Source: Roseateles sp. (GTDB taxonomy: Bacteria; Pseudomonadota; Gammaproteobacteria; Burkholderiales; Burkholderiaceae_C). From it: a stretch of 64,000 nucleotides of DNA. Numbering within the stretch: position 1 is the stretch's first letter; each line of letters begins with the position of its first letter. This document shows, in pieces, positions 4,472 to 21,367 of the stretch. Below the pieces are notes generated by a model. That model had not been told where the DNA came from. It saw only the letters and a program-made list of their open reading frames with translations, and ran no database searches. The translations under genes and the position numbers were made by a program. The DNA is taken from assembly GCA_016790285.1 (NCBI GenBank), contig JAEUPJ010000055.1, positions 1 through 64,000 on the forward strand. The letters are read 5' to 3'.

Positions 4472-4514
4472 GATTTCTCCCATTGGTCGCCAAGTTAAAT
4501 GACCCACCTCCGCC

Positions 4515-5138: not shown

Positions 5139-5562
5139 AACGACACCCTTGAGTTGCTAGTTCGACCGCGCCTCCGCATCGCTTGCAAGGCGAGAGACGT
5201 TGAATATATAAGACCATAGCGTTAGGTCTTAGATGGATGCATCCATAGGAGTGATGAGGTCGGTAGCTACTTCCGGCGTATCACTCCCAGGCGTGCCATC
5301 CACTGTTCGCCGACGAGCAGGTCCCTAGGGTGAAGCTACCGTTCGTGTCCGGTGGCATTCAATGACCTGCATTGCCAGCTGCTTGCATTCAGGCACCGAA
5401 CCGTCAATGACTCAGATCAGCCTATTGCCGAGGCTCGGTGAACTTCGGCTTTGGGCACTTTGCTGACTCTCGGATGCCAACTGCAAATGACAGCAACCAG
5501 CCTGAAACCGCCGTAGGACGTCAGCCGCCAGTGGAGCAACACGTGCCGCATCATCACGCCCC
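5139..5562. other. Intergenic region between the low-GC operon and core DNA, with palindromes
   Basis: 424 bp without a credible gene. It contains a perfect 14-bp palindrome ATGGATGCATCCAT at 5233-5246, followed directly by an 8-bp inverted repeat (GGAGTGAT at 5248-5255 and ATCACTCC at 5280-5287) that could form a hairpin. An AT-rich TATATT on the minus strand (5203-5208) could be the -10 of the promoter for the Nudix operon, but no good -35 was found. Composition changes from low to high GC across this stretch, so one boundary of the accessory patch probably lies here. Confidence 0.45.
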
Positions 5563-5841
5563 ATGAAACCGAATCCCGAGCCCGTGGGCGCAGGCGCCTC
5601 GCCCAAAGATCGCGTGCCAAAGAACCCGCTGAGCCCGAAGAAGCTGTTGATGACGAAGTGGACGGCGGTGCAGCCCCGCAACCGCGAAAAACACTTCGTC
5701 GTCACGCGCGTCGTCGAACCTGAGCCGCCCTCCGTGCGCGTCGAGCAGGTCGAACTGGAGGCCGTGCATTCCAAGCAGGTGTATCTGCTGCATTGGCGCG
5801 AACTGACCGACGCGAGTCTTTGGCGTCAAGGCTGGGTTTGA
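5563..5841 (+). CDS. TIGR02450 family Trp-rich small protein
   Basis: 92 residues. The sequence has the hallmarks of the conserved TIGR02450 family: NPLSPKKLLMTKWTAVQPRN near the N-terminus, EKHFVVTRVVEPE in the centre and a WRELTDASLWRQGW tail with several tryptophans. Family members are small cytoplasmic proteins of unknown function found in many proteobacteria. It stands alone; the next plus-strand gene starts 147 bp downstream. The first 15 residues are Pro/Gly-rich and less conserved, so a later start is possible, but no better ATG follows before the conserved NPLSPKKL segment. Confidence 0.85.
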   Translation: MKPNPEPVGAGASPKDRVPKNPLSPKKLLMTKWTAVQPRNREKHFVVTRVVEPEPPSVRVEQVELEAVHSKQVYLLHWRELTDASLWRQGWV

Positions 5842-5988
5842 GGCAAGGCTTTCTTGGCCTCATAGGGCCGGCTGGCCGCAGGCGGCACCCGCCCACTGGC
5901 GGTACTGCGACAACTCGCCGGGCGCAATGCCGCCCGAGCGGCGGGCGACGCCAGCGGCGAGGCCGCCCCAGGCACTAGCATCGCCGCC

Positions 5989-7164: not shown

Positions 7165-7839
7165 TCAATCGCCCCACTTCCCCACATACTTCTTGTAGCT
7201 CTCCAACCACCCATTCGACCCGAACCCACCCTCGCTCTGGTGCGTGATGGCGATCGGCCAGGTGGCCAGGCGCAGGCCGGCGGCGCGGGCGGTGCGGCAG
7301 AAGTCCATGTCGTAGAAGTGGAAGTCAAAGCGCTCGTCGAAGCCCACCTGCCTGGCGCGCAGCGTGTCGCGCTTGGCGATGAGCAGCACGCCGTCGAGCA
7401 GTTCGCATTCGGCCGGCACGGCGCCGAAGGCCGAGATGGTGCCGAAGGGGGACGGGCCGTGGGAGACGACGCCGCTCAGGTTGGCGCGGTCGTCCCACTG
7501 GAACTGCAGCGTTGGGAAGGCCCAGCTCGGCTGCATCGGCGCGCGGCGCTTGTTGCCGGCCACGCCGATGACGTCGAAGCTGTGCACGGCCGCCAGCGCG
7601 TGCTCGAAGAAGAAGTAGTCGTCGAGCCAGACGTCGTCGTGGATGAAGGCCAGCACGGGCGCGGCGTCAGCGGCGGCGATGCGCTCGTTGTAGAGCGCCG
7701 GGAGGCCGCGGCGGTTCTCGAAGAAGACGCGCGGCAGCAGCCGGTTCTCGTGCGACATGCGGCGCAGCGACAGGCCCAGGGCGGACTTGTTCCAGAACTC
7801 CGCTTCGGTGGCGCGCGTGGCGCAGACAAGGTCGATCAC
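7165..7839 (-). CDS. Glycosyltransferase, GT-A/StrF-like
   Basis: 224 residues beginning with GTG at 7839; GAGG lies 9 bases upstream and the gene starts 6 bp after the previous stop. It has the short glycosyltransferase fold of the StrF-like (Glyco_tranf_2_5) type: N-terminal LPALYNERIAAADA, a DDVWLDDYFF acidic motif likely to bind metal and nucleotide-sugar, then ELLDGVLLIAKRDTL and the FHFYDMDFCRTARAAG segment typical of GT2-like active sites. It probably adds a sugar to a glycan or protein in the cytoplasm. It is the last gene of the 12-gene secretion/glycosylation block, so it may extend the glycan begun by the GT41 enzyme encoded at the block's start (inference). Confidence 0.8.
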   Translation of the reverse strand: MIDLVCATRATEAEFWNKSALGLSLRRMSHENRLLPRVFFENRRGLPALYNERIAAADAAPVLAFIHDDVWLDDYFFFEHALAAVHSFDVIGVAGNKRRAPMQPSWAFPTLQFQWDDRANLSGVVSHGPSPFGTISAFGAVPAECELLDGVLLIAKRDTLRARQVGFDERFDFHFYDMDFCRTARAAGLRLATWPIAITHQSEGGFGSNGWLESYKKYVGKWGD

Positions 7840-7845
7840 GGCGGC

Positions 7846-9192
7846 CTACCTCAGGAAGAGTGCGAGGGTGTCGCAGGGCACGCTGCGCACGGGTGGCACT
7901 GGCGCCGTCATGCGCGCGTTGTTGACCGCGTAGGCCAGCTCGCGCGGGTGGTGCCAGGTGTCGTAGTACAGGCGTGAGGCGCGCGCCTGCTCTGCCAGCA
8001 CGGCCGGCGTCACGTCGCGCAGCACACGCACGAGGTCGTCAGGCGTCTCCCACCACAGCGCCTCGGGGTAGGCGATGTCGCGCGTGGAGTGCAGCCGGGC
8101 CAGGGTGCTCTGCTGCACCAGCACCGGGATGCCGGCTCCCATGGTCTCGACGATGCCCTTGGCGCCCTGCACGGGGAAGGACGAGATGCACAGGTCCACT
8201 CCGCTCTCGCGCAGCCAGCCCCACAGGCTGGGCACGGGCGTCTGGTGATGGAAACGCGCCGGGTCGACCCCGGCGGCATCGAGCCGCGCACGGAAGGCCG
8301 CCAGTTGCTCCGGCGGCAGTGTGCCGACGTGGATGTGGCTGCCGCCGACCTCGGTCAGCCGCCGCAGCAGCACATCGAAGTAGCCGTAGCGCCCTGGTGC
8401 CAGGAACTTGTTGGCCGAACCATGCGCGCAGGTGAGGAGTTCGCCCTGCGGCCTGAAGGCATGGCCGGTGCGCGCGCCCTGGTCGGGCGCCACCAGCGGC
8501 CAGTAGGCCTGGCGGCCCACGCCGAGGTGGTGCCGGCACTGGTAGTGGCTCAAGTGGGTGCAGTCCACGTGCAGCGCGTGCGGCAGGTACACGCCCAGGG
8601 CCATGTCGTGGTCGCAGTGGTGGAAGTACACCGTCTCGCGCGCCACGCCGGGCTGGGCGGCGCCGATGGCGGCCACGTCGTAGTGGTGGTTGAACAGGGT
8701 CAGCAGGCCCGGCTTGAGGTTGGCCAGCTGCATCTGCAGCCAGCGCAGCTTGTCGGGCAGCGAGAGCGCCGGCGCAGCGACGATCTGCACCGGGCGCGCC
8801 ATGTCGCGGTTGAAGCTGTCCAGCGGCAGCGCGCGGTCGTGCAGGTTGGTGACGATGACGACATGGGTCAGGTCGGGCCGCGCGCGGATCACGTCCTTGA
8901 GCGCCAGCGTGTGGCCGCCCTGGGCCTCGTAGACCTCGGTGACGAGGTGGATGGCGAGCTGGTCGTTGTAGCTGTCTGGCGCGGCAAGCGCGAGCTGGCG
9001 GGCCGACATCTCCCCGGCGGCCTGGCAGAAGCGGTCCATCTCGGCGGAGCCGTACACCACGCCGCGGGCGCGGGGGTCGTTCACCATCGCGATGACGAGG
9101 TTGCTGATCTCCAGCAGCATCGCCGGCCATTCGCCTGCCGCTTGGTGGGCTTCGAGGCGCTGCACCAGGTCGAGGAACTTGAGTTGGCTCAT
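7846..9192 (-). CDS. Putative GT-B type glycosyltransferase
   Basis: 448 residues from ATG 9192, which overlaps the stop of the upstream acyltransferase (ATGA). The open frame extends much further upstream, but only as an antisense-like shadow of that gene. The N-terminal ~120 residues are helical; the C-terminal half looks like a GT-B nucleotide-sugar domain: FLAPGRYGYFDVLLRRLTEV, then SGVDLCISSFPVQGAKGIVE and TMGAGIPVLVQQ, with the acidic/Gly residues used to bind the donor. A His-rich stretch (VYFHHCDHDMALGVY, about residue 205) is unusual. Similar proteins occur in flagellin and surface-glycan islands. Donor and acceptor are unknown; the block suggests an acylated amino-deoxyhexose donor. 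Confidence 0.7.
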   Translation of the reverse strand: MSQLKFLDLVQRLEAHQAAGEWPAMLLEISNLVIAMVNDPRARGVVYGSAEMDRFCQAAGEMSARQLALAAPDSYNDQLAIHLVTEVYEAQGGHTLALKDVIRARPDLTHVVIVTNLHDRALPLDSFNRDMARPVQIVAAPALSLPDKLRWLQMQLANLKPGLLTLFNHHYDVAAIGAAQPGVARETVYFHHCDHDMALGVYLPHALHVDCTHLSHYQCRHHLGVGRQAYWPLVAPDQGARTGHAFRPQGELLTCAHGSANKFLAPGRYGYFDVLLRRLTEVGGSHIHVGTLPPEQLAAFRARLDAAGVDPARFHHQTPVPSLWGWLRESGVDLCISSFPVQGAKGIVETMGAGIPVLVQQSTLARLHSTRDIAYPEALWWETPDDLVRVLRDVTPAVLAEQARASRLYYDTWHHPRELAYAVNNARMTAPVPPVRSVPCDTLALFLR

Positions 9193-9974
9193 GCGTGCTC
9201 GCTCCCGGGGGTGCCGAAGTCGAAGCGCTCGACGCCCTCGGCCCAGGCCTGCACGACCGCCTCCGGGTAGCCGCGCACGAAGCGGTGGCGCCAGGGGTAG
9301 GCGCGCTGGCGCAGGTCGCCCTTCACGCGCAGGTCGCTGGCTTTGCACATGCGCTTGGCTGGCGCGCCGGAAACGAGCGAGTCCTCGGGCATGTCCTGCC
9401 CCACGAGGGCATGCGCCGCGACGAAGCTGCCGCGCCCGATGGTGACACCGGCCAGCAGCGTCGCCTTCACCGCCACGACGACATAGTCTTCGAGCGTGAC
9501 ACCGAGGAGATCGTTGCTCGGCGGGTTGGGGTCGTTGGTCAGCACCACGCCGGGGAAGAGCCAGACGAAGTCCCCCACCACCGATTTCTGGCCGATCGTG
9601 ACCGAGCTTTGCGTGCGCACGTGGTGCCCGATCTCGCAATGCCCCTGGATGTCGCCCAGCGTGCCGATCTGGAAGTTCTGCCCGGCCTGCGTGAGTTCCC
9701 GCACCGTGACGCGGTGGCCCGTGACCAGGCCCTGCCCGAAGCGGGACCCCGCGTAGAAGACGCTGTGCGAGCGGATCAGCGCGCCCGCGCCGATGATGAG
9801 GGGCTGCCCCTGTGCCAGCGGCGTCGGGTAGCCGATCTCGCAATGCCCGTCGATGCGCGAGCCGTCGCCGATCTCCACGTCCTCGTGCACGACCGTGAAC
9901 GGCCCGATAGACACGCCGGCACCCAGCCGCGCCCGCGGCGACACCAGGGCCGTGGGGTGGATGAGCGCGCTCAT
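9189..9974 (-). CDS. Left-handed beta-helix (LpxA-like) acyltransferase
   Basis: 261 residues, almost entirely hexapeptide repeats ([LIV]GxxxxX) from HPTALVSPRARLGAGVSIG to about residue 190, giving the left-handed parallel beta-helix of the LpxA/WbpD class. The order resembles LpxA: HPTA start, an external loop, and the conserved HCEIG and QSSVTIG turns. Such trimeric enzymes move an acyl group from ACP or CoA to an amino sugar or other amine. Next to an ACP, an adenylating enzyme and a FabG-like reductase, it is a good candidate for attaching an acyl (perhaps 3-hydroxyacyl) chain to the amino sugar made by the adjacent genes. It overlaps its neighbours on both sides by ATGA, so all three are translationally coupled. 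Confidence 0.82.
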   Translation of the reverse strand: MSALIHPTALVSPRARLGAGVSIGPFTVVHEDVEIGDGSRIDGHCEIGYPTPLAQGQPLIIGAGALIRSHSVFYAGSRFGQGLVTGHRVTVRELTQAGQNFQIGTLGDIQGHCEIGHHVRTQSSVTIGQKSVVGDFVWLFPGVVLTNDPNPPSNDLLGVTLEDYVVVAVKATLLAGVTIGRGSFVAAHALVGQDMPEDSLVSGAPAKRMCKASDLRVKGDLRQRAYPWRHRFVRGYPEAVVQAWAEGVERFDFGTPGSEHA

Positions 9975-10693
9975 GCCGTGCTCCCGTTGTCCACGGTGAG
10001 CGTGGTGCCGTTGATCATGGCGCCGCCCTCGCCCAGCAGGAAGGCCACGCTGTCGGCCACCGCCTGCACCGTCGCGAGCTGGCCCGACGGGCTGCGCCGC
10101 TTGATGGCCGCGAGCTTGTCGCCCTGCAGCCCCCGGGTCATCTCCGTTTCCAGGTAGCCGGGTGCCACGCAGTTGACGTTGATGTTGGCCTTGCCGAGCT
10201 CGCGCGACAGCGACTTGGTGAATCCGATCAGGCCGGCCTTGGTCGCTGCGTACACCGACAGGCCGCTGAAGCCCGTGAAGCCGATGATGGAGGCCACGTT
10301 GACGATGCGGCCCCCGCCACCCAGCAGCATGGAGCGCGACACGTACTTGGTCAGCACGATGGGCGACTGCAGGTTCACCAGCAGCGCCTGCGCGATGTCC
10401 TGCTCATGCATGGTGGCCAGCACCCCGTCCGCCCCGATGGCGGCGTTGTTGACGAGCCCGTAGATGCGGCCGTGGCGCCGCGTGAGCTCGCCCACCCATT
10501 CGTGCATGGCCTCGGTGCGGCTGAGGTCGAAGCGCTCTTCGCTCGCACCACCGGCCTGGCACAGCTGCGTGAGCTCCTCGCTGCCCTGGCGTGCCACGGC
10601 GATGACGTGAAAGCCCTGCTGCACCAGCCGCTGGCTGATCGCCAGCCCCAGGCCGCGGCGCGCTCCCGTCACGATGACGTTTTTCCTGCTCAT
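9971..10693 (-). CDS. FabG-like short-chain dehydrogenase/reductase
   Basis: 240 residues from ATG 10693 (ATGA overlap with the upstream adenylating enzyme; longer in-frame starts would run antisense-like through that gene). It is a classical SDR: the NADP-binding VTGARRGLGLAISQRLV, NNAAIG at about 85, the serine region VASIIGF and the catalytic YAATKAGLIGFTKSLSRELG, then the FabG-like VNCVAPGYLETEMT. FabG-type enzymes reduce 3-oxoacyl-ACP to 3-hydroxyacyl-ACP. With an ACP and an acyltransferase in the same operon, it probably makes a 3-hydroxyacyl group for sugar decoration, as the analogous reductases do in the Pseudomonas flagellin glycosylation and viosamine islands (family knowledge; substrate here inferred). 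Confidence 0.88.
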   Translation of the reverse strand: MSRKNVIVTGARRGLGLAISQRLVQQGFHVIAVARQGSEELTQLCQAGGASEERFDLSRTEAMHEWVGELTRRHGRIYGLVNNAAIGADGVLATMHEQDIAQALLVNLQSPIVLTKYVSRSMLLGGGGRIVNVASIIGFTGFSGLSVYAATKAGLIGFTKSLSRELGKANINVNCVAPGYLETEMTRGLQGDKLAAIKRRSPSGQLATVQAVADSVAFLLGEGGAMINGTTLTVDNGSTA

Positions 10694-12033
10694 CCCCTGT
10701 CCCTCGACATCTTTCCCGCGGCGTTGACCCGGATGTTCTCCGCCGACACGACGAAAGCCGGCACCTTGAAGGCCTCCAGCCGCTGCCGGCAATGCGCCGT
10801 CACGCGGCGCTTGAGCTCGGTGTCCAGGGCCGCCCCGGCTGCCGGCAGCACCGCCGCTTCCACGAGGCTGCCCAGCACGGCGCTGGCGCGCGCGCGCACC
10901 TGCACGAAGGCGATCTCCGGCAACTCCAGGATCACCGACTCGACCTCTTCCGGCATGACCTTGTTGCCACCGACGTTGATGGAGCCGTTGGCCCGCCCGA
11001 CGAAATGGATGCGCTCGGCCTCCACGCGCACCACGTCCCCGCTGTCCAGCCAGTCCGTCGCCCCAGGCTGGCGCAGCCACAGGTGCCCTTCCTCGCCCAC
11101 GCGCAAGCCGACCGGCAGCACGTCAGGCGCCAGGTAGGCCTTCGGGAACCCGGCGATGCCGTCGCGCACCGCAAAGCCGACACCGGCTTCGGTGGACGCG
11201 TAGATGTGGGTGATGCGCGCCTGCGGGAAACGTCGCGCCAGCATGTCGAGCACGGGCTGGTCGACGATCTCGCCCCCCAGCGTGATCTGGCTCAGGGCCA
11301 GGGCGTCGGACTGCGGCAGCATGGCGAGCTTGCGCCACATGGAGGGCGTGGCCGACAGGGCGCTGCAGCCTTCGCGCGCCAGCACCTGCAGGCGTTCGCC
11401 CAGGTCCACGTCGTCTTCGCACAGGATCAGCGGCGCGCCTTCGCTCCAGGCTTGAAGAAACACCTGCAGGCCGGCGAACCGGCGCAGGCTGTACAGGCTG
11501 GCCCACACCAGCGGCGCACGCGGCGCGCCACGCCGCGCACTGCGCGTGAGCGAGGCCAAGGTGTGGGCGATGAGCTTCGGCGCGCCCGTGGTGCCCGAGG
11601 TGGGCAGCAGCCACTCGGTCGTGAAGGCCGCCGGCGCGGCCAGCGCCCTGCCCTGCGGAGCGGCTTCAGGGGCTTCAGACGCATCGGGGGCGTCACGCGT
11701 TTCAGCCCCCGCCTGCGGCAGCAGCCCCAGGCCCTGCGCGCCGAGCACGGCGTCGACGCGGGTCAGCCCCAGCCGCGTCTCGCGCGCCGGCCCGGTTTCC
11801 TCGGCCGGCAAGAGCACCAGCGCCTCGGCCACGCCGTCCAGGGCGACCAGCGCCGTGAGGAAGCTCAGCACCGGCATCTCGGCCAGCGCCACGCGCTTGC
11901 CACGCCAGGCCGCCACGTCCAGCCCGGCGACGGCGCTGCGCAGGGCACCGGCGCTGATGCGTTCGCCCGACGACGTCACCCACACCACCGCGTCGGCGGG
12001 GGCGGACTGCAATCGCTCGGAGAGGCAGGTCAT
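10690..12033 (-). CDS. AMP-forming acyl-adenylating enzyme (ANL superfamily)
   Basis: 447 residues. The adenylation core is recognisable: P-loop-like LLPTSGTTGAPKLIAHT at about 142-158, the A5 motif HIYASTEAGVGF, WLDSGDVVRV (A7 aspartate) and the C-terminal hinge FVGRANGSINVGGNKVMPEE with AGKMSRDRG carrying the catalytic lysine. Enzymes of this type activate a carboxylic acid with ATP and load it on CoA or a carrier protein. It is a little short for an acyl-CoA synthetase because the N-terminal subdomain is reduced. The gene starts on the last base of the ACP stop (TGATG), so ACP is the obvious acceptor. The acid is unknown. Confidence 0.85.
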   Translation of the reverse strand: MTCLSERLQSAPADAVVWVTSSGERISAGALRSAVAGLDVAAWRGKRVALAEMPVLSFLTALVALDGVAEALVLLPAEETGPARETRLGLTRVDAVLGAQGLGLLPQAGAETRDAPDASEAPEAAPQGRALAAPAAFTTEWLLPTSGTTGAPKLIAHTLASLTRSARRGAPRAPLVWASLYSLRRFAGLQVFLQAWSEGAPLILCEDDVDLGERLQVLAREGCSALSATPSMWRKLAMLPQSDALALSQITLGGEIVDQPVLDMLARRFPQARITHIYASTEAGVGFAVRDGIAGFPKAYLAPDVLPVGLRVGEEGHLWLRQPGATDWLDSGDVVRVEAERIHFVGRANGSINVGGNKVMPEEVESVILELPEIAFVQVRARASAVLGSLVEAAVLPAAGAALDTELKRRVTAHCRQRLEAFKVPAFVVSAENIRVNAAGKMSRDRG

Positions 12034-12284
12034 CAGGGTGCGTAGCGCTCGTAGATGCTGACGAACTCGCCCAGCGTGCGCGGGTAGACCGGCTCGGACA
12101 TCTTGACGAAGGGGTCGTAGCCCAGCGTCTCCTCCAGGCGGGCCACGAGGATGGCAAAGCCCAGCGAGTCCAGACCCGATTCAAGCAGCAGCGTGTCGTC
12201 GGTCATGGTGCCCACCACGGCGGCGCCGCGGCTGTCGGCAGCCTCGGCCAGCGCGGCAAGGATCTCGGATCTCAGGTTGTTCAT
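12033..12284 (-). CDS. Acyl carrier protein
   Basis: 83 residues. The phosphopantetheine attachment site is the serine of ESGLDSLGFAILVARLEE (about Ser 38), in the standard GxDSL context with the following amphipathic helix. Size and charge fit a stand-alone ACP, but the sequence is not that of the fatty-acid AcpP. It is stop/start coupled (TGATG) to the adenylating enzyme gene that follows, and upstream of FabG-like reductase and LpxA-like transferase genes. The set forms a dedicated acyl supply for the amino-sugar pathway (inference). The preceding aminotransferase ends 36 bp upstream. Confidence 0.9.
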   Translation of the reverse strand: MNNLRSEILAALAEAADSRGAAVVGTMTDDTLLLESGLDSLGFAILVARLEETLGYDPFVKMSEPVYPRTLGEFVSIYERYAP

Positions 12285-12320
12285 GCAGTGACTCGGTTCG
12301 TGTTCAGTGAAGAGGGCCCG

Positions 12321-13418
12321 TCAGGCGCAGGCGCGCACCGCCGCGACGACGGCGTCGGTCTGGGCGTCGGTCATGCCCGGCCACAGCGGCAGGCTCAGCA
12401 CCTCGCGGTGGATGGCCTCGGCCACGGGGAAGTCCCCCGCGGCGTGGCCCAGCTCGGCGTAGGCCGGCTGCAGGTGCGGCGGCACGGGGTAGTGGATGAG
12501 GGTGCCGATGCCACGCTCGCCGAGCGCAGCCTGCAGGCGGTCACGCGCCTCGTGGCGGATGACGAAGAGATGCCAGGCGGGCTCGGCGCCCTCGGGCACG
12601 AAAGGCAGGCCCACGGGGGCGCCGGCCAGGCCGTCGAGCAGGCGCGCGGCGATGGCGCGGCGTTGGTCGGTGAGCGCGTCCAGCTGCGGGAGCTTGGCGG
12701 CCAGCACGGCCGCCTGCATCTCGTCCAGGCGCGAGTTCAGGCCCTTGACCTCGTTGTGGTACTTGATGCGCGAGCCGTAGTTGCGCAGCACGCGCACGGC
12801 GTCGGCCACGGCGGCGTCATCGGTCGTCAGCCCGCCGCCGTCGCCCATGGCGCCGAGGTTCTTGCCGGGGTAGAAGCTCCAGGCCGACACGTCGGCGAGC
12901 GCACCGACGCGCCGGCCCCGCCAGCGCGCACCGTGCGCCTGGGCGCAGTCGTCCAGCACCTTCAGGCCGCGGCGCTGCGCGATGGCGTTGATGGCGTCCA
13001 TGTCCGCCGGCTGGCCGTACAGGTGCACGGGCAGGATGGCCTTGGTACGTGGCGTGATGGCCGCTTCGATGCGGGCCGGGTCGAGGTTGTAGGTGCGGGC
13101 GTCGGGCTCCACGGGCACCGGGCGCGCGCCGCACTGGCTCACCGCCAGCCACGTGGCGATGTAGGTGTTGCTCGGCACGATCACCTCGTCGCCCTCGCCC
13201 ACGCCGAGGGCGCGCAGGCCCAGGTGCAGCGCGTCCAGGCCGTTGCCCAGGCCCACGGCATGGGCGCTGCCGCAGTAGTCGGCCCACTGGCGCTCGAAGG
13301 ACTCCAGCTCGCGGCCGAGGATGAACCAGCCACTGCCGGCCACGCGTGCCAGCGCCGCGTCGATGGCTGCCCGCGACGCCGCGTAGGTGGGCTGCAGATC
13401 CAGGAAAGGCAGTTTCAT
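12321..13418 (-). CDS. DegT/DnrJ/EryC1/StrS family sugar aminotransferase
   Basis: 365 residues. A PLP-dependent nucleotide-sugar aminotransferase: FLDLQPTY start, GNGLDALHLGLRALG, SNTYIATWLAV, the LDDCAQAHGARW aspartate, and the PLP-binding lysine in SFYPGKNLGAMGDGG (about residue 188). These features match the FdtB/QdtB type, which transaminates dTDP-3-keto-6-deoxyhexose to the 3-amino sugar. The assignment is strengthened by the upstream gene, a fused 3,4-ketoisomerase/acetyltransferase whose stop overlaps this start (ATGA). The configuration of the product (3-amino-fucose or 3-amino-quinovose) cannot be read from sequence. dTDP-sugar precursor genes rmlA and rmlB are not in this window. 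Confidence 0.88.
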   Translation of the reverse strand: MKLPFLDLQPTYAASRAAIDAALARVAGSGWFILGRELESFERQWADYCGSAHAVGLGNGLDALHLGLRALGVGEGDEVIVPSNTYIATWLAVSQCGARPVPVEPDARTYNLDPARIEAAITPRTKAILPVHLYGQPADMDAINAIAQRRGLKVLDDCAQAHGARWRGRRVGALADVSAWSFYPGKNLGAMGDGGGLTTDDAAVADAVRVLRNYGSRIKYHNEVKGLNSRLDEMQAAVLAAKLPQLDALTDQRRAIAARLLDGLAGAPVGLPFVPEGAEPAWHLFVIRHEARDRLQAALGERGIGTLIHYPVPPHLQPAYAELGHAAGDFPVAEAIHREVLSLPLWPGMTDAQTDAVVAAVRACA

Positions 13419-14371
13419 GCGGTGGACCGTCCCGTCAGGGACAGGAATTCGTCATAGCTGCGGATGTAGTCCTGCGCATCGTAGGTGTCGGAGGCGAGCA
13501 CCATGAGCAGGGCATCGGCGGTGAACTGGTACTGGATGCCCCAGACCATGGGCGGGATGTGCAGGCCGACCTTGGGCGAATCCAGCCGCACCTCGTCGCG
13601 GTGCTCGGCATCGTCCAGCACGATGGTGCAGGCGCCCTTCAGGCACACGAGGAACTGGTGGCAGGCCTTGTGCGCATGCTCGCCGCGCACCTCTTCCCCG
13701 GGCACGTCGTACACCGCGAAGAAGCGCTTGGGCTGGAATGGCAGGTGCGCGCCGATCTCGCCGAAGCTCAGCGCGCCGCGCAGGTCGATGATCTTGGGCA
13801 GCGCGTGCAGCGCGGCGCCGCGGGCGGAGAGCGCGGGCAGCTGGTCGCCCAGCGCGGCGGCCGTGATGGCCGCGCCGGTGACCTTGACCTCGGGCGTGTC
13901 CAGGTAGCCGACGATGTGCGCCGGGTTGCCGGCCACGATGGCCCGCGGCGGCACGTCACGCGTCACCACGGCGCCGTCGGTCACGAGCGCGCCGGGGCCG
14001 ATGGTCAGGCCCGCCTGGATGGTGGCGTTGGCGCCGATGCTGGCGCCCGCGCGCACGCGGGTCTTGAGGAACTCGGCCGGCTTCTGGCGGCTGCGCGGTG
14101 CGGGGTCGTTGCTGAAGGCGGCGTTGGGGCCGACGAAGACGTCGTCCTCCAGCGTGAGGCCGTCCCACAGGTAGACGCCGCACTTGACGGTGACGCGGTC
14201 GCCCACGGTCACGTCGTTCTCGATGAAGACGTGGTCGCAGATGTTGCAGTCTGCCCCGATGCGGGCCCCCGGCAGCACGTGGGCGAACGCCCAGACCCGC
14301 GTGCGCGGCCCGACCTGCGTGGACTCCACCAGGGCGTGCGAGTGCACGAAAGCGTCGCTGCCGTCCGTCAT
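13415..14371 (-). CDS. Bifunctional sugar N-acetyltransferase / dTDP-4-keto-6-deoxyglucose 3,4-ketoisomerase (FdtD/WxcM-like)
   Basis: 318 residues, two domains. Residues about 5-150 are a left-handed beta-helix acetyltransferase (HVFIENDVTVGDRVTVKCGV, VYLWDGLTLEDDVFVGPNAA, FSNDPAPRS). Residues about 185-312 are a WxcM/FdtA cupin (KRFFAVYDVPGEEVRGEHAH, CHQFLVCLKGACTIVLDD) with the conserved HxH. The same fusion is known in Shewanella FdtD, which isomerises dTDP-4-keto-6-deoxyglucose and acetylates the 3-amino sugar made by the aminotransferase. The ATG at 14371 has GGGGAG eight bases upstream. It follows the TolC gene after 70 bp and couples to the aminotransferase gene. Whether the helix domain uses acetyl-CoA or another acyl donor is open, since a second LpxA-like gene sits downstream. 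Confidence 0.88.
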   Translation of the reverse strand: MTDGSDAFVHSHALVESTQVGPRTRVWAFAHVLPGARIGADCNICDHVFIENDVTVGDRVTVKCGVYLWDGLTLEDDVFVGPNAAFSNDPAPRSRQKPAEFLKTRVRAGASIGANATIQAGLTIGPGALVTDGAVVTRDVPPRAIVAGNPAHIVGYLDTPEVKVTGAAITAAALGDQLPALSARGAALHALPKIIDLRGALSFGEIGAHLPFQPKRFFAVYDVPGEEVRGEHAHKACHQFLVCLKGACTIVLDDAEHRDEVRLDSPKVGLHIPPMVWGIQYQFTADALLMVLASDTYDAQDYIRSYDEFLSLTGRSTA

Positions 14372-14441
14372 CGATTCGTCTCCCCAAGCATGGAGGTTTC
14401 AGTATCTCTCGGCCGCCCGCGCGCGCCGAGGCTCGCGAGGC

Positions 14442-15872
14442 TCAGCGCAGCGGCGTGGACACGCCCCGCCCCATGCTCCAGATCAGCGCCACGACCTGCT
14501 GCGCGTCGAACATCGCGTTCACGTGGGCCACGCGCATCGAGTAGTAGTCGCCCTCGGCGGCCATCACGTCGAAGAGCGAGCGCCGGCCGAGCTGCTGCCA
14601 CTGCTGCAGCGTGGACGCGCGCACGCGGTCGCTGTTGCGCAGGATCTCGACGATGCGGCGTGCGCGGTCCAGCGTCGACACGCCGACCTCGTTCATCTCC
14701 AGCAGCCGGTAGCGCTTGGCCTCGATGGCCTCGTCGCGCTGCAGCACCGTGGCGCGGTAGCGCTGCACGGCAGCGCTGGCCTGGGCCTGGGCGCCGGGCT
14801 GCAGGATGGGAATGGTGACGGAGATGCCCGCGCCGATGTCGGTCTGGCGCTGGTCGTTGGGGCCGCCACTGCGCAGCAGCGCGCTGGCGCTGCTCGTGAG
14901 GTTCACGGTGGGCTTCTGGCCGGCGATGACGGACTCGGCAAAGCTGCGCTGCGAGCGCGCCTGTGCCTCGGCCTGCGCGACGTCCGCACCCAGCAGGATG
15001 TCGCTCTGCATCTGCTCCAGGTCGGGCATGACGGACAGCTGGGACGTCATGCCGATGCTCGGCGGCAACGGCTCGCCCACCAGGCGCTTCATGCGCACCT
15101 CGGTCTGGCGCAGGGCCGACATGGTCTGCTCCAGCGACAGGTCGGCCTGCTGCAGGCTCTTCTGCGCCTGCACCAGTTCGCTGGCGCGGCCGCGGTCGGC
15201 CTTGGTGATGATCTCCAGCGCGTCCACGAGGCAGGCCATCTTGCGCACGTACTGCGTGTACACCTGGCCCTGCAGCACGTAGCGGCTGCGGTCCAGCGCC
15301 AGCGACACGACGTTCAGCGACAGCTGCTCCTCGGCGCTGCGCTGCCCCTGCTGCGCGACTTCGGCGAGCTCCTTGCGCCACTCGGTGAGCTTGGCAATGC
15401 GGCCGGCGTCCCACAGCGGCATGCCGGCACTGATGGTGGCGCCGAACTGGCCGCCGCTGCCCACGGTCGTGCCGCCCACGCTCTGGCGGATGCCGTTGGC
15501 CGACAGGCTGAGCGTGGCCGTGGGCATGGCCAGGGCGCGCGTCTCTTCCAGGTCGAAACGGGCGGCCTCGCTGAGCAGGCGCACGGCGCCCAGCGCCTTG
15601 CTGCGCGAGAGCGTCTTGTCGATGAGGATCTGCAGCGCGGCACGCGGGTCGCCGTTGTCGGTCTCCAGCGACGTCATGTCGCGGCCCAGGCGCGAGAGCC
15701 CGGCGTCGTCTTCGTTGCAGCGGCCACCCTGGGTGGGCGCTTCGGCGACTGGCGCGGCAGGCGGCGGGGCGGGCTTCTTGGACGGGCGCGCCTGCGCAAG
15801 CGCGAGCGAGCCGAACAGGGCAAGGCCGAGGGCGAGCAGGTGGGCAGGCAGATGGCGGATGGGGTACAGCAT
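14442..15872 (-). CDS. TolC-family outer membrane protein of a type I secretion system
   Basis: 476 residues from ATG 15872, chosen because it gives a signal peptide (MLYPIRHLPAHLLALGLALF, cleavage near ALAQA); an upstream ATG would add 12 polar residues. The mature protein shows the internal repeat of the outer membrane efflux family: long coiled helices (SKALGAVRLLSEAARFDLEE; VSTLDRARRIVEILRNSDRV) alternating with short beta segments. It would form the outer-membrane channel for the exporter encoded just upstream. The central linker (RCNEDDAGLSRLGRDM) and two cysteines are less typical. There are 66 bp between this gene and the HlyD gene. Confidence 0.85.
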   Translation of the reverse strand: MLYPIRHLPAHLLALGLALFGSLALAQARPSKKPAPPPAAPVAEAPTQGGRCNEDDAGLSRLGRDMTSLETDNGDPRAALQILIDKTLSRSKALGAVRLLSEAARFDLEETRALAMPTATLSLSANGIRQSVGGTTVGSGGQFGATISAGMPLWDAGRIAKLTEWRKELAEVAQQGQRSAEEQLSLNVVSLALDRSRYVLQGQVYTQYVRKMACLVDALEIITKADRGRASELVQAQKSLQQADLSLEQTMSALRQTEVRMKRLVGEPLPPSIGMTSQLSVMPDLEQMQSDILLGADVAQAEAQARSQRSFAESVIAGQKPTVNLTSSASALLRSGGPNDQRQTDIGAGISVTIPILQPGAQAQASAAVQRYRATVLQRDEAIEAKRYRLLEMNEVGVSTLDRARRIVEILRNSDRVRASTLQQWQQLGRRSLFDVMAAEGDYYSMRVAHVNAMFDAQQVVALIWSMGRGVSTPLR

Positions 15873-15938
15873 GGCCCCATCACTAGACCACCCGCCCTCC
15901 CCGGCCAAAGCCCGGAAAAGCGGCTGGCCGCCCGCGCA

Positions 15939-17138
15939 TTACCGCTCGCGCAGGGCTTCCTGTGACTTCATCATCGGCCGCAGCAGGTAGCTCAGCACCG
16001 AGCGCTCGCCGGTCTTGATCTCGACGACCGAGGTCATGCCCGGGATGACGGGCAGCTTCTCGCCCTTGTACTTGAGGTTGTTGCGCTCGGCCGTGACGAT
16101 GACGCGGTAGTGGCCCTCGCCCGTCTTGTCGCCCTCGGTGACGGCGTCCGGGCTGATGTAGGTGACCTTGCCTTCCAGGCCGCCGTAGGTGTTGAAGTCG
16201 TAGCCGGCGAGCTTGACCTCGGCCGTCTGCCCGAGGCGCACGAAACCGATGTCCTTGGGCTTGATGCGCGCTTCCACGAGCACCTTTGGCCCGATGGGCG
16301 CGATCTCGAGGATGGGCGCCCCGCTGCCGATCACGCCGCCGATGGTGCCGGCCTTGACGCTCTTGACGACGCCATGCACGGGCGACTTGAGCACGGTGCG
16401 CGTGAGCGCGTCCTGGCGCACCACCATCTGCTCGTCCATCTGCGCCATTTCGCTTTGCACGCGCACGAGTTCCTGGCTGGCCTCCTGCCGGTAGCGGCTC
16501 AGCCGCTCGGTGCGCTGCTGCTGGATCTCGTTGACCTGGCGGTTCAGCCGCATCACCTCCACGTCGCTCATCAGGCCGCTGCGGCTCATGTCCTGCGCGA
16601 GCTTGAGCTCCTTGGAGATCATGCCGAGGCTGCGGTTGATGGCGCCCACGGCCTCCTCGAGCAGGCGCCTGCGGGCCTCGAAGGACTCGGCCTCGGCAAT
16701 GGCGTAGCGGGCCTTGGGGTCGACGTCGGCCGGCCAGCGCACGGTGGCGCGGCCGTTGGCCTCGGCCTCCAGGCGGGCGGCCGCGGCCTTGAGCGACAGC
16801 AGCTTGGCCTGGCCTTCGGCCTGCTGGGCCTCGACGCGTGTCGGGTCGAGGTAGGCCAGCTCCTGCCCGGCCTGCACCTCCTGGCCCTCGCGCACCTTGA
16901 GCTCGCGCAGGATGCCGGCGTCCAGGCTGGCGATGACCTGCTCGCGGCCGTCGGGCACGACCCGGCCGTCGCTGCGGGTGATCTCGTCCACCTTGGCCAG
17001 GGCCGACCAGGTGATGGCCACCGTGACGACGGCGCACAGCAGGTACAGCGCCCAGGTCGCACGCGGCAGCGGCTCGTCGATGTGCGCGGCGTGGATGGCG
17101 CTGACGAAGACGCCTTCTTCCTTGGTCAGCACGCTCAT
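15939..17138 (-). CDS. HlyD-family type I secretion membrane fusion protein
   Basis: 399 residues. A short cytoplasmic N-terminus is followed by one membrane helix (about 29-48, WALYLLCAVVTVAITWSALA), the lipoyl half-motif DGREQVIASLDAGILRELKV, a long coiled hairpin (about 95-250) and the second lipoyl/beta-barrel part (VLKSPVHGVVKSVKAGTIGG, then GMTSVVEIKTGERSVLSYLL, the typical HlyD C-terminus). It bridges the inner-membrane ABC exporter and the TolC-type channel. The start codon overlaps the ABC gene stop (ATGA). The C-terminal ending near RPMMKSQEALRER is characteristic of LapC/HlyD adaptors. Confidence 0.9.
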   Translation of the reverse strand: MSVLTKEEGVFVSAIHAAHIDEPLPRATWALYLLCAVVTVAITWSALAKVDEITRSDGRVVPDGREQVIASLDAGILRELKVREGQEVQAGQELAYLDPTRVEAQQAEGQAKLLSLKAAAARLEAEANGRATVRWPADVDPKARYAIAEAESFEARRRLLEEAVGAINRSLGMISKELKLAQDMSRSGLMSDVEVMRLNRQVNEIQQQRTERLSRYRQEASQELVRVQSEMAQMDEQMVVRQDALTRTVLKSPVHGVVKSVKAGTIGGVIGSGAPILEIAPIGPKVLVEARIKPKDIGFVRLGQTAEVKLAGYDFNTYGGLEGKVTYISPDAVTEGDKTGEGHYRVIVTAERNNLKYKGEKLPVIPGMTSVVEIKTGERSVLSYLLRPMMKSQEALRER

Positions 17139-19501
17139 ACGGAGGCGGAACGCTGCACGGGTTGGGCCGACGGGTGCATGTGCACGCCGCCCTCGGCGCC
17201 ACCGGCGGGCGCGGCCGGGCGCACGCCGGACAGCGCCGCCAGCACCTGGTCACGCGGGCCGTCCATGACGACGCGCCCGCCATCGACGACGACGATGCGC
17301 TGCACCAGCTCCAGCACGGCGGGCCGGTGGGTCACGACCACCAGGGTCGCGCTGCCGGCCGCATCGCGCAGCTGGCGCAGGAAGGCCATCTCGCTTTGGG
17401 CGTCCATGGAGCTGGTGGGTTCGTCCATCAGCAGGATCTGGGGCTTGGTGACCAGGGCCCGCGCGAGTGCCACGAGCTGGCGCTGGCCGCCGGAGAGCAG
17501 CTGGCCCATTTCGCCCACGGGCAGGTCCCAGCCCATCGGGTGGCCGGCGACGACGCGGTCCAGGCCGGTCAGCTTGGCGACTTCGACGAGCCGGCCCGCG
17601 TCCAGGTGGCCGCGGCCCATCAGCACGTTGTCGCGCAGGGTGCCGAGGAACAGGCGCGGCTCCTGGCTGACGAAGCCGACGCGGGCGCGGTACTCGGCCG
17701 GGTCGACCTGGCGCAGGTCGATGCCGTCCACCTCCACCATGCCCTCGGTGGGCAGGTACAGGCCGCCGAGCAGGCGCAGGATGGTGGACTTGCCACTGCC
17801 GATGCGCCCGAGGATGGCCACGCGCTCGCCGGCCTCCAGGCGCATGGTCACGCCGCGCAGCACGCGGGGCGAGGCAGCCTCGGCCGTGGTCTGGCTGTGC
17901 GAGGTGGCGGCCGCCGGGTAGGCGAAGCCCACGTCATGCAGGCCGACCTTGCCCGTCACGTTCGCCAGCGGCACGTAGTTGCGGGCGCTGTCGCGCTCCA
18001 CCGGCGCGTTCATCATCTGGTTGAGCGCGAGCATCGCGGCACGCGCGCCCTGGTAGCGGGTGGCCAGGCTCACGAGGCTGCCCAGCGGCGCGACGGCCCG
18101 GGTGGCGAACATGACGGAACCGATGAGCGCACCCGCGCTGATGACGCCGTCATGGATGAGGTACACGCCCCACACCAGGATGATGAGGCTGATGGCCTGC
18201 TGCAGCGTGCTGGAGAGGTTCATGCTCCAGCTCGACAGCGCGCGCGACGTGAGCGCCGTGTCCGCCACGATGGCCGTCGTGCGCTCGTAGCGGCGCAGGA
18301 AGCGGCCTTCGGCGCCGGATGTCTTGAGGTCTTCCAGGCCTTCGAGGGACTCGACCAGGGTGCCGTGCAGGTCCGCCGTCTCCTGCATGTTGGTGCGCAT
18401 GGCGCGCCGCAAGGCCCCTTGGATGGCCCAGCTCAGGCCGATGATGACCGGCACCGCCAGCACCAGCACCCAGCCCAGCGGCCCGCCGATGACGAAGGTC
18501 ATCCCGATGAAGATGACGAGGAAGGGCAGGTCCGACAGCGCCGAGAGGGTGGCCCCGGTGAAGAACTCCCGCACCATCTCCACCTGGCCCAGGTAGGCCG
18601 CGTAGGCACCGGCCGAGGCGGGCTTGTGCTCCATGCGCACGCCCAGCGTCTGGCGGTAGAGCTTGGCGCCGATGACGAGGTCGGCCTTGCGGCCGGCGAG
18701 GTCGATGAGGTGGGAGCGCAGCTGCCGCGCGAACAGGTCGAACAGCAGCGCCACGCCGGCCCCGACGGCCAGCGTCCACAGCGTGACCATGGCCTGGTGC
18801 GGGATGACCTTGTCGTAGATGACCGACGTCACCAGCCCCGACACCAGCATCAGCACGTTGGACAGCAGCGCCGCCAGCATGGACGCGCGGTAGTACGGCG
18901 TGAAGCGCTTGAGCGTGCCCCACAGCCAGTGCGAATCCAGCCCCTTGTCGCCGAGCTTGAGCAGCGGCGACTCCGACGGCGAGGCCGACTCCAGCGGCGA
19001 CACCGCCAGCAGGAAGCCGCTGTACTCGGGCTCCAGCTCGGCCGTGGTGGCCGGCACGGCGGCCGCCTCGGGGCCGGGGAAGACCACCTCGTAGCGGCAG
19101 CTGCCGGGCGCGGCGCTGGCCGGGTCGTCCAGCCGGCGCACCAGCACGCAGGCGTCGCCGCCGTTGAGCAGCAGCACGGCCGGCAGCAGCAGGCTGTTGA
19201 TCTCGTCGATGCCCTTGCGCAGCAGCCCGGCGTTGTAACCGGCCTCGCGCATGACGCGGATGGCGGAGTCGGGCGTCAGCGCCCCTTCGACCGGCGTGCC
19301 CGCCCGCAGCGACTGCGGCGAGCGCGGCTTGCCGTGGTGGGCGGTCAGCCACGACAGCGCCTGCAACAGCGGGTCGCCGGCCGGCTGGCTGGCGAGGTCA
19401 TCCAACGGGTCCGGCGGCGGCGGCGGCTCGCCGTTCGCGGCCAGGCGCAGCCCCGCGACCTGGGGCTGGCCGTCGAAGAAGGGGTCGTGGCGTTGCGGCA
19501 T
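17135..19501 (-). CDS. Type I secretion ABC transporter with degenerate C39-like domain (LapB-like)
   Basis: 788 residues. Residues about 40-150 form a C39 peptidase-like domain (PLLQALSWLTAHHGKP), but the position normally holding the catalytic cysteine is not cysteine, so it should bind rather than cleave the substrate. An ABC membrane domain follows at about 190-490. The nucleotide-binding domain has Walker A GRIGSGKST (about 565-573), signature LSGGQRQLVALARAL (about 669), Walker B ILLMDEPTSSMD and the switch VTHRP. Such exporters with a C39-like domain usually secrete RTX proteins or large adhesins. The substrate gene is not in the window. The gene directly abuts the GT41 glycosyltransferase gene, which suggests that the exported protein is glycosylated (inference). 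Confidence 0.9.
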   Translation of the reverse strand: MPQRHDPFFDGQPQVAGLRLAANGEPPPPPDPLDDLASQPAGDPLLQALSWLTAHHGKPRSPQSLRAGTPVEGALTPDSAIRVMREAGYNAGLLRKGIDEINSLLLPAVLLLNGGDACVLVRRLDDPASAAPGSCRYEVVFPGPEAAAVPATTAELEPEYSGFLLAVSPLESASPSESPLLKLGDKGLDSHWLWGTLKRFTPYYRASMLAALLSNVLMLVSGLVTSVIYDKVIPHQAMVTLWTLAVGAGVALLFDLFARQLRSHLIDLAGRKADLVIGAKLYRQTLGVRMEHKPASAGAYAAYLGQVEMVREFFTGATLSALSDLPFLVIFIGMTFVIGGPLGWVLVLAVPVIIGLSWAIQGALRRAMRTNMQETADLHGTLVESLEGLEDLKTSGAEGRFLRRYERTTAIVADTALTSRALSSWSMNLSSTLQQAISLIILVWGVYLIHDGVISAGALIGSVMFATRAVAPLGSLVSLATRYQGARAAMLALNQMMNAPVERDSARNYVPLANVTGKVGLHDVGFAYPAAATSHSQTTAEAASPRVLRGVTMRLEAGERVAILGRIGSGKSTILRLLGGLYLPTEGMVEVDGIDLRQVDPAEYRARVGFVSQEPRLFLGTLRDNVLMGRGHLDAGRLVEVAKLTGLDRVVAGHPMGWDLPVGEMGQLLSGGQRQLVALARALVTKPQILLMDEPTSSMDAQSEMAFLRQLRDAAGSATLVVVTHRPAVLELVQRIVVVDGGRVVMDGPRDQVLAALSGVRPAAPAGGAEGGVHMHPSAQPVQRSASV

Positions 19502-21367
19502 TTAGGCCTTGGAGCGGGCGTCGAGCGCCAGGCGCTCGAACTCATGCTCTATATCGCGCACGATGGCCGGGATGTCAAACAGCGGCGAGCTGCGGCCATG
19601 CTCGGCCAGGTAGCGCTTGTACGACGCCGCCCGCGCCGGCTGGTTGCCGATCTGCACCGCGCGCTGCTCGTACTCTTCCAGCGTCGTCGTGATGAGGTCG
19701 GGCAGGCCCACGGCCGTCAGCAGGCTGCCGGCCATGCGCGAGATGTAGGTGCGCCCCGAGCGGGTGAGGATGGGCGTGCCCATCCAGAGGCAGTCGCTCG
19801 CGGTGGTGCCGGCGTTGTAGGGGAAGGTGTCCAGGAACAGGTCGGCCAGCGTGAAGCGGGCGAGGTAGTCGGCCGGCTGGGCGCGGCCGGCGAACACGAG
19901 CCGCTCCGGGGCGATGCCCTCCTCCACCGCCACGCGGGTGAGGTTGGCCTTGGCGAAGGGGTTGTCTGCCAGCAGCCACAGCACGCTGCCCGGCACCTGG
20001 CGCAGCACGCGCATCCAGCAGCGCCAGACCTGCTCGCTCATCTTGTGGTTGTTGTTGAACGCGCAGAAGACGAAGGCGTCTTCCGGCAGCCCGACCTCGG
20101 TGCGCGTGGGCGCCGGGTTGGCGACGCGCTGGCGGTCGCTCACCTGGTAGCAGTGCGGCAGGTAGATGGGCTTTTCGGTGTAGTAAGGCAGCGACTTGGG
20201 CGGCATGACGAAACGGTCCGCCAGGATCCAGTCCACGCCGGGGATGGCCGAGGTGGCCGGCAGCCCGAGGTAGCTCACCTGCACCGGCGCGGCGCGGTGG
20301 GTCAGGATGGCGGCACGCGCGCCGCTGGTCAGGCCCTGCAAGTCCACCAGCACGTCGATGCCGGCTTCGGCAATCATCTCGGCCGCCTGGCGGTCGCCCA
20401 CGCCGTGCAGCGGGTGGTAGTGGTCCATGCCGGCCCTGATGCGGGCACGCAGCGGCGTGCCGTCCTCGCGGCTCCAGCTGAAGGCATGGATCTCGAACTT
20501 GCTGCGGTCGTGCAGTTCGTACAGCTCGGCCGTCAGCAGGCCCACGGCGTGCATGTGCAGGTCACCGGACAGGTAGCCGATCCGGATCTTGCCTTCGCGC
20601 TTGCGGCCCAGGTGCAGCGGCGGCGCGCTGACCTTGGGGAGCTTGTCCATGACGAAGCGCTGCGAGGTGAGCAGCTGCAGCGCCGGGTCGTCGCTCTCGT
20701 CGAGCATGGCCAGCAGCGAGGTGCTCATCAGCAGGTGGTTGTGCGTGACCTCGCCGAAGGTCTCGTACACCGGCCAGGCGCACTGCTTCTGGCGGATGTG
20801 CACGTAATGCTGGGCGACGTCGCTCTGGCGCGGGTCCAGCGCGAGCGAGCGGCGCATCAGCGCCTCAGACTCGTCGTAGCGCTTGAGCTGCTCCAGCAGC
20901 CGTGCGGCGTTGTTGAGCGCATGCAGCACCAGGCTTTGCGGCTCCGCGCCCAGGCTGTCGGCGGTGGGGTTGTCATAGACGGCGCGCCACTCGGCCAGCG
21001 CCTCTTCCTCACGGCCCTGGTGCTCGAGCTGGTGGCCGAGGTTCAGCCGGGCCTGCGCGAAGTTCGGCGCCAGGCCCAGGGCCATGCGGTAGACGGTCTC
21101 GGCGTCGGTCGGCCGGCGCAGCTCGCCGAGGATGGCGCCCCAGTTGAAGCAGGCCACGTGGCGCATGGGCGAGGCCGTGGCGGCCACCCAGGTCTGGTAG
21201 AGCAGCGCGGCAGCGTCCAGGGCGCCAGCGGCCTGCAGGCGGGACGCCGCCTCCATGACGTTGGGCAGCGGCCACTGGCCACTGCGGGCCAGGCCCAGCC
21301 ACTGTTCGACCACGGCAATGCCCTGGATCCCGGAGGGTTGGGCGGCGGAGGGCGTCGACATGTCCAT
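19502..21367 (-). CDS. SPINDLY-family (GT41, O-GlcNAc transferase-like) protein glycosyltransferase with TPR repeats
   Basis: About 621 residues. ATG 21367 is taken; 21361 (MSTPSAAQ) and TTG 21406 are alternatives and none has a clear Shine-Dalgarno. Residues about 30-230 contain TPR-like repeats (ETVYRMALGLAPNFAQARLN, LGHQLEHQGREEEALAEW). The catalytic part shows the GT41 motifs: IRIGYLSGDLHMHAVGLL, APVQVSYLGLPATSAIPGVD, FVFCAFNNNHKMSEQVWRCW and LFLDTFPYNAGTTASDCLWM. Enzymes of this family transfer a sugar from a nucleotide donor to Ser/Thr of proteins in the cytoplasm. It is first in the block and directly followed by the exporter, so its acceptor is probably the type I secretion substrate (inference). 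Confidence 0.88.
   Translation of the reverse strand: MDMSTPSAAQPSGIQGIAVVEQWLGLARSGQWPLPNVMEAASRLQAAGALDAAALLYQTWVAATASPMRHVACFNWGAILGELRRPTDAETVYRMALGLAPNFAQARLNLGHQLEHQGREEEALAEWRAVYDNPTADSLGAEPQSLVLHALNNAARLLEQLKRYDESEALMRRSLALDPRQSDVAQHYVHIRQKQCAWPVYETFGEVTHNHLLMSTSLLAMLDESDDPALQLLTSQRFVMDKLPKVSAPPLHLGRKREGKIRIGYLSGDLHMHAVGLLTAELYELHDRSKFEIHAFSWSREDGTPLRARIRAGMDHYHPLHGVGDRQAAEMIAEAGIDVLVDLQGLTSGARAAILTHRAAPVQVSYLGLPATSAIPGVDWILADRFVMPPKSLPYYTEKPIYLPHCYQVSDRQRVANPAPTRTEVGLPEDAFVFCAFNNNHKMSEQVWRCWMRVLRQVPGSVLWLLADNPFAKANLTRVAVEEGIAPERLVFAGRAQPADYLARFTLADLFLDTFPYNAGTTASDCLWMGTPILTRSGRTYISRMAGSLLTAVGLPDLITTTLEEYEQRAVQIGNQPARAASYKRYLAEHGRSSPLFDIPAIVRDIEHEFERLALDARSKA

Follow-up and report, generated by a model that had tools for sequence, protein, structure and literature searches.

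Serine-rich repeat glycoproteins of Gram-positive bacteria are served by an accessory SecA2/SecY2 exporter together with core and strain-variable transferases, and the a-type flagellin glycosylation island of Pseudomonas aeruginosa offers a second system for comparison. FlmG of Caulobacter carries a tetratricopeptide repeat (TPR) part that binds the flagellin acceptor and a catalytic GT-B part (PMC7591256). HMW1C places N-linked hexoses on HMW1, which leaves the cell by two-partner secretion (PMC3012730). The FrpC module, finally, is described in PMC7078468 as occurring in no proteins other than some RTX proteins secreted by type I systems. Here we analyse a window of 64 kb, i.e. the whole stretch of Roseateles DNA presented, which forms the first part of a 68.6-kb contig (C92) in a genome of 5.88 Mb, 107 contigs and 95% completeness. 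Gene finding by codon-position GC (guanine plus cytosine) content placed twelve consecutive genes on the minus strand at 7165-21367. This block probably (we put it at about 70%, from sequence comparison) provides the biosynthesis and export functions, one half of a system by which giant glycoproteins are secreted, with ALTTAQ repeat proteins as cargo.

At the head of the block, the gene of a GT41 glycosyltransferase of OGT/SPINDLY type with N-terminal TPRs (19502-21367, 621 aa) abuts at 19501/19502 that of a type I secretion ATP-binding cassette (ABC) permease/ATPase of the LssB/LapB type (17135-19501). An HlyD-family periplasmic adaptor (15939-17138) completes this core and a TolC-family outer-membrane channel (14442-15872) follows. 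The same-strand series with GT41 adjoining an exporter, as the original prediction had described it, was thereby recovered by gene finding. Both the ABC protein (TIGR03375, 755.6 bits, cut-off 693.1) and the adaptor (TIGR01843, 315.5 bits, cut-off 208.65) scored over their cut-offs with an outer-membrane efflux protein adjoining, which assigns the set to type I secretion of the LssB/LapB type. The channel itself passed the cut-off of PF02321 and stayed under that of TIGR01844 (51.6 vs 225.15), and the N-terminus of the ABC protein had no Pfam C39 peptidase match. We compared the core with 35 named loci of relatives, in which flanks reach at most 10 kb after GT41; one of them (L164) was excluded from the core count, its contig ending inside GT41. 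GT41, LssB and HlyD were all present in 34/34 testable loci, with TolC recognisable in 23. Because this core is kept throughout the testable relatives, the arrangement, judged from gene order, is not due to chance.

Co-occurrence with ALTTAQ was examined in 200 genomes of the source family, a set that overlaps with the named loci (G030, G034, G062, G111 and G116 occur in both). ALTTAQ was counted at E 1e-3 and found in 53/200 genomes, 50 of them over the Pfam cut-off. Clade limits were set at visible score gaps: >800 bits for LssB (834 bits in the 38th row, 606 in the 39th) and >600 bits for GT41 (611 bits in the 35th genome, 489 in the 36th), five GT41 rows <600 bits being kept outside the clade. 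The exporter clade, which covers 27 genera of the sample, and ALTTAQ were found together in 37 genomes, the exporter only in 1, ALTTAQ only in 16 and neither in 146 (Fisher 1.8e-26; these genomes are related, so P values ignore shared descent). ALTTAQ is thus present in 37/38 genomes with the exporter clade vs 16/162 without it, and the sole exporter-carrying genome lacking it, G043, is an assembly of ~700 contigs and 80% completeness. The corresponding counts for the GT41 clade were 35 for both, 0 for GT41 only, 18 for ALTTAQ only and 147 for neither. GT41 was located at most 400 bp from LssB in 32 of the 38 exporter-clade genomes, in keeping with the earlier view of GT41 and exporter as one unit; four further genomes carried another GT41 3.0-7.9 kb away and two had none on that contig among the matches listed. 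For 24 exporter-clade genomes, ALTTAQ coordinates were among the matches listed, and in 18 of these the exporter and ALTTAQ were separated by 6.4-32.6 kb.

The association extends beyond the family. In a phylum sample of 386 proteobacterial genomes outside the source family, with ALTTAQ counted at E 1e-6, GT41 was present in 18/20 ALTTAQ genomes vs 104/366 others (Fisher 4e-8), 16 of the 20 belonging to one family (f47). Among the matches listed, GT41 lay at most 25 kb from ALTTAQ in 10/20 genomes. These come from f15, f44 and f47, three proteobacterial families besides the source one in which ALTTAQ and GT41 are neighbours.

The candidate cargo was recognised in a genome of the same genus (G030), where a series of giant Thr/Ser-rich repeat open reading frames (ORFs) starts ~27 kb beyond LssB and matches PF20080, the ALTTAQ repeat (3.8e-57). 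In the genome studied, PF20080 scored up to 59.7 bits (cut-off 26.4) on contig C65, in a frame that the gene finder sets at 2178 codons, or 46 more from the first ATG, and that runs off the contig end. An end of contig C48 encodes a C-terminus sharing 69% identity with the one of the ALTTAQ protein P0005. A large repeat-rich protein, for which the original prediction had proposed a search of the whole genome, does exist here, and in relatives it co-occurs with the GT41-exporter pair, usually nearby. The longest ALTTAQ ORF read has 4,328 aa. Nine such ORFs displayed an octad period, with an identity of 0.31-0.37 at lag 8 and 0.07-0.12 at lags 7 and 9; Ser and Thr together make up 20-29% of their residues, and Cys is absent. 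In the PDB, a chain of 120 residues named HeliScrew4 matched the repeats of P0005 (1.9e-13). Near the C-terminus of the repeat protein, a GSCFA-family gene (by Pfam in L048) and a companion were seen in both G030 (L048 13691-14737) and this genome (L071 4315-5361), and in G030 the region from the glycosylation block to the ALTTAQ genes includes two adjoining large genes (1612 and 1484 aa, L048 1233-10565).

Sequence comparison of P0005 showed a match to the FrpC module at its C-terminus (E 2.3e-34). An FrpC-type module was present in all 16 ALTTAQ C-termini read, from 12 related genomes; 15 of them are 59-88% identical to the P0005 module, and ten of the 16 end with the residues PLI. In 16/16 the Asp-Pro cleavage site has given way to Thr-Pro or Ser-Pro, so that no clip-and-link is to be expected and these C-termini from relatives do not qualify as FrpC-type self-processing. 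No Sec-type signal was apparent by eye at the N-termini of the own ALTTAQ protein and three others.

The original prediction had favoured an RTX protein as cargo. This part was not borne out: RTX repeats of PF00353 (GGXGXDXXX) had no match on C65 or C48, the contigs carrying the two ends of the own ALTTAQ gene, and the likely cargo is the ALTTAQ octad-repeat protein. The exporter and GT41 might still serve another secreted protein, for instance a calcium-binding RTX protein, ALTTAQ being merely a neighbour. LssB-type exporters are known for RTX adhesins and this genome encodes RTX-repeat proteins, its PF00353 matches being found on C7, C23, C50 and C1. These contigs are other than that of the block, however, the giant RTX frame on C7 is preceded by ABC (with a C39 domain) and HlyD genes of its own, and the near-complete accompaniment of the exporter clade was counted for ALTTAQ. 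We consider this explanation improbable. The C7 region (L040 8000-22000, L041) deserves a mention in its own right: the ABC gene (1124-3256) and the HlyD gene (3253-4725) are followed on the same strand by a family-4 glycosyltransferase (4728-6026, PF12000) and by the RTX frame of 4279 aa, an arrangement that is possibly another glycosylation-export pair.

We then consider the transferase itself. The catalytic domain of the block GT41 matches PF13844 with 254.5 bits (cut-off 25) and its N-terminal repeats match TPR_2 with 38.1 bits (cut-off 27). Its best PDB match is XcOGT (446 residues, 6e-75), and His and Lys positions, which we take to be the catalytic residues, are preserved in the alignment with XcOGT and, in the part shown, with human OGT. 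The block GT41 is hence a predicted protein Ser/Thr glycosyltransferase of the OGT/SPINDLY type. Between the window enzyme and 24 distant members of its clade, mean identity was 57% in the TPR part and 70% in the catalytic part; with two flagellin-linked GT41s it was 17 and 24% in the TPR part and 42% in the catalytic part. In a midpoint-rooted tree of 45 GT41 sequences, which contains few outgroups and from which L044, L053 and L221 dropped out for want of a GT41 ORF in gene finding (leaving out the G563 enzyme and the additional GT41 of the genome studied), two alphaproteobacterial GT41s neighbouring ALTTAQ joined the window clade with support 1.0. A second, distant GT41 (31%) was noticed after the GT41-LssB-HlyD core in one relative (L154 16588), followed in turn by an aminotransferase-like gene.

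In animals and plants, GT41 enzymes act on numerous proteins inside the cell, and the block enzyme could accordingly act as an O-GlcNAc-style regulator of the exporter subunits or other cytoplasmic proteins and not on a cargo. This would leave unexplained the sugar cassettes found between exporter and repeat protein. Moreover the bacterial TPR plus GT-B enzyme FlmG modifies exported flagellins, which it binds via its TPR part (PMC7591256), and we regard a regulatory role as very improbable indeed.

Behind TolC, the block continues with a sugar module, an acyl module and two more putative glycosyltransferases, all on the minus strand. The sugar module comprises LbH-FdtA, a bifunctional sugar N-acetyltransferase and 3,4-ketoisomerase with hexapeptide repeats (13415-14371; PF05523, 172.5 bits), and a DegT/DnrJ/EryC1 sugar aminotransferase (12321-13418; PF01041, 409.9 bits). 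The best PDB match of the former (6.9e-101) is 4mzu, presumably the bifunctional ketoisomerase/acetyltransferase FdtD of Shewanella denitrificans, to which it aligns over residues 9-311 of 318; the gene sits here in an export block. The acyl module consists of an acyl carrier protein (ACP, 12033-12284; PF00550, 24.2 bits, cut-off 20.8), an AMP-forming acyl ligase (10690-12033; PF00501, PF13193), a FabG-like 3-oxoacyl-ACP reductase (9971-10693; PF13561, PF00106) and a left-handed beta-helix acyltransferase resembling LpxA/NeuD (9189-9974; PF00132), whose TIGR03570 and TIGR01852 matches fall below their cut-offs. The last two genes encode P0001 (7846-9192) and a GT2-like glycosyltransferase (7165-7839; PF13712, 30.2 bits, cut-off 27). 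Junctions are tight: of the eleven, five overlap by 4 bp (17135, 13415, 10690, 9971 and 9189) and one by 1 bp (12033), GT41 and LssB abut, and the remaining four gaps measure 6, 36, 66 and 70 bp.

The dTDP-Fuc3N/Qui3N pathway is represented in this genome by RmlB, an FdtA-type ketoisomerase, an aminotransferase and an acetyltransferase. RmlB is encoded on C70 and the single FdtA match of the genome is the block gene; therefore, dTDP-3-acylamino-3,6-dideoxyhexose is the expected product of the sugar genes. P0001 had neither a Pfam match nor a PDB sequence match. Part of its C-terminal half nevertheless aligns with GT41 (hhalign 87%, E 3.7e-6, 113 columns), its weak matches in G136, G048, G143 and G140 coincide with the GT41 genes of those genomes, and its predicted model (pLDDT 62) has likeness to GT-B enzymes including OGTs. 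We take P0001 as an orphan, distantly OGT-like GT-B glycosyltransferase and as a candidate transferase of the 3-amino sugar. Large P0001-like transferases (757-885 aa) were also seen in the flagellin-gene regions of L050, L051 and L052, two of which (L050 and L052) contain FdtA-like and aminotransferase-like genes as well.

Next to the constant core, these modules vary among relatives. FdtA-like (>40%) and aminotransferase-like (>60%) genes were both found in 8/35 named loci within the flanks, and the GT2-like gene, which sits at the cassette end in several relatives, is kept at 60-91% in 7/35. G030 retains the locus, but a single GNAT (PF13302) stands in for ACP, ligase, reductase and acyltransferase, and where G030 has this GNAT the nearest tree relative of the window GT41 (L132) has a 185-aa protein. 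Besides GT41 and exporter, L160 carries the acyl module of the window (identities of 70% for the ACP, 57% for the ligase, 74% for the reductase and 76% for the acyltransferase), placed after a methyltransferase-like gene; FdtA, aminotransferase, P0001 and GT2-like genes were not seen within its 10 kb, which end shortly after that module. L136, L137 and L138 kept GT41 and exporter with neither FdtA nor aminotransferase within 9-10 kb after GT41. Wider regions were read in 12 family genomes: seven have FdtA-domain genes, located next to the exporter or in the interval from it to ALTTAQ, and aminotransferase-like genes as well, and other cassette genes included NeuB (G154), KAS III (3-oxoacyl-ACP synthase III; G156) and methyltransferase genes. 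With a constant core and changing sugar genes, the locus looks like two separate units, core and cassette, and the acylated amino sugar like one of several sugars.

The original prediction had tied the sugar genes to the exporter, and this did not hold: relatives retain the exporter without them, within flanks of 9-10 kb, an outcome which the prediction had itself named as refuting it; GT41 and exporter do stay together. The acylated 3-amino-dideoxyhexose it had proposed is backed by the genes present here and is not fixed, as the loci L136, L137, L138 and L160 illustrate. The idea of a glycosylated secreted protein fits the giant Ser/Thr-rich cargo; what has to be given up are the RTX cargo and a fixed acylated sugar.

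Such variability could also mean that only GT41 and the exporter belong together and that the sugar genes decorate lipopolysaccharide (LPS), capsule or flagellin. The low count of FdtA plus aminotransferase genes in the named loci speaks for this, as do L050 and L052, where flagellin genes are accompanied by genes for FdtA, an aminotransferase and a P0001-like protein. On the other hand, the sole FdtA gene of this genome overlaps its aminotransferase gene by 4 bp and starts 70 bp behind TolC, and the seven widely read genomes mentioned above have FdtA-domain genes on the ALTTAQ side of the exporter or next to it. No LPS gene was recognised within the block, and no flagellar gene among its twelve members or the neighbours that were scanned (DAO, DUF1993 and 2HADH), in agreement with the earlier remark that none is near. 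We judge this explanation unlikely, though LPS or flagellin may be a further acceptor of the sugar.

Several observations weigh against an ALTTAQ glycoprotein system. In this genome the block and ALTTAQ are located on different contigs, as they are in four others (5/24), and G133 has them at a distance of 433 kb. This exporter clade is missing from 16 of the 53 ALTTAQ genomes of the family, and FdtA and aminotransferase were not seen in the flanks of 27/35 named loci. Outside the family, the flanks of nine genomes contained GT41 in four and ABC plus HlyD in three (G563, G243 and G232). The TPR parts of alphaproteobacterial GT41s beside ALTTAQ are just 21-33% identical to that of the window, and two of four such enzymes group with the two flagellin-linked ones in the tree. 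Two ALTTAQ genes (L170 1560 and L180 7787) start with a short hydrophobic stretch. Lastly, type I channels are thought to pass unfolded chains, and passage of a glycosylated chain is an assumption of the model.

With these points weighed, we still prefer glycosylation and export of the ALTTAQ protein, which we infer from the sequences. The TPR part of GT41 would recognise the octad-repeat protein in the cytoplasm, since it is conserved within the clade and the TPR part of FlmG, by analogy, binds the acceptor. The catalytic part would put the first sugar on Thr/Ser of the octads; the conservation of GT41 beside changing cassettes suggests that this first sugar is common and extended by cassette transferases. 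Exchangeable cassette genes would thus make strain-specific sugars and lengthen the glycan: here, ketoisomerase, aminotransferase and acetyltransferase would yield dTDP-3-acylamino-3,6-dideoxyhexose with a further ACP-derived acyl group, to be transferred by P0001 and the GT2-like enzyme. LssB-HlyD-TolC would then recognise the uncleaved C-terminus, composed of the FrpC-like calcium module and a short tail, and the modified chain would be exported and fold outside in calcium. Export and outside folding are proposed because of the FrpC relation of the ALTTAQ C-terminus (PMC7078468).

Other features of the window lie outside this system. GC content is 0.50-0.58 in its first three 2-kb steps (1-5900) vs ~0.65-0.74 elsewhere; this part, possibly acquired DNA, contains a 1059-aa orphan ORF without Pfam match (1523-4702, minus strand) and a NUDIX ORF (4515-5138, minus strand). 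On the other side of the block, a 154-aa protein without Pfam match (24211-24675) has 77-85% identity in relatives where it was seen.

A wider proposition, for and against which we see even odds, is a Pseudomonadota-wide class of type-I-secreted ALTTAQ glycoproteins, on which a dedicated GT41 would set dense O-glycosylation while they are still in the cytoplasm, with exchangeable cassettes of serotype-like kind and an exporter threading the glycosylated chain. If true, PF20080 would acquire a class of function and a bacterial GT41 clade would be tied to a defined cargo, and passage of glycosylated chains through a type I channel would become testable. The exchangeable cassette suggests, by analogy with O-antigens, surface or matrix diversity under selection. 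In the literature searched, nothing joined SPINDLY, GT41, or O-GlcNAc transferase plus adhesin, to type I secretion and nothing contained the word ALTTAQ. Within these limits, the pairing of giant-repeat-protein glycosylation with a type I exporter appears undescribed.

Each known system shares a part of this design. As with FlmG, a cytoplasmic enzyme unites a TPR acceptor part with a GT-B catalytic part, and genes for an amino-deoxyhexose and for an acyl group of the ACP/KAS III kind are found as in flagellin islands (G156); in contrast to flagellin glycosylation, the block has a type I exporter and no flagellin gene, and the GT41 clade tracks ALTTAQ. HMW1C/HMW1 likewise pair a cytoplasmic transferase with an exported adhesin, whereas the block has a GT41 of OGT-like type, exports by a type I system and adds a cassette for building sugars. 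The candidate cargo shares its FrpC-type module with FrpC/ApxIVA-type RTX proteins (PMC7078468) and differs from them by having no RTX repeat match on C65/C48 and a changed cleavage site throughout. With respect to serine-rich repeat systems, no accessory SecA2/SecY2 was present among the exporter genes of the block (ABC, HlyD, TolC), the only region examined for them. The exporter is a Gram-negative type I system, GT41 and octad repeats are involved, and no homology is claimed. The likeness to serine-rich repeat/accessory Sec loci, drawn by analogy, is one of function: a giant Ser/Thr-rich repeat protein, its presumed cytoplasmic O-glycosylation by a core transferase plus strain-variable ones, and a dedicated exporter are brought together in the same region, and the class proposed here, if real, would be a Gram-negative functional counterpart of the serine-rich-repeat glycoproteins.

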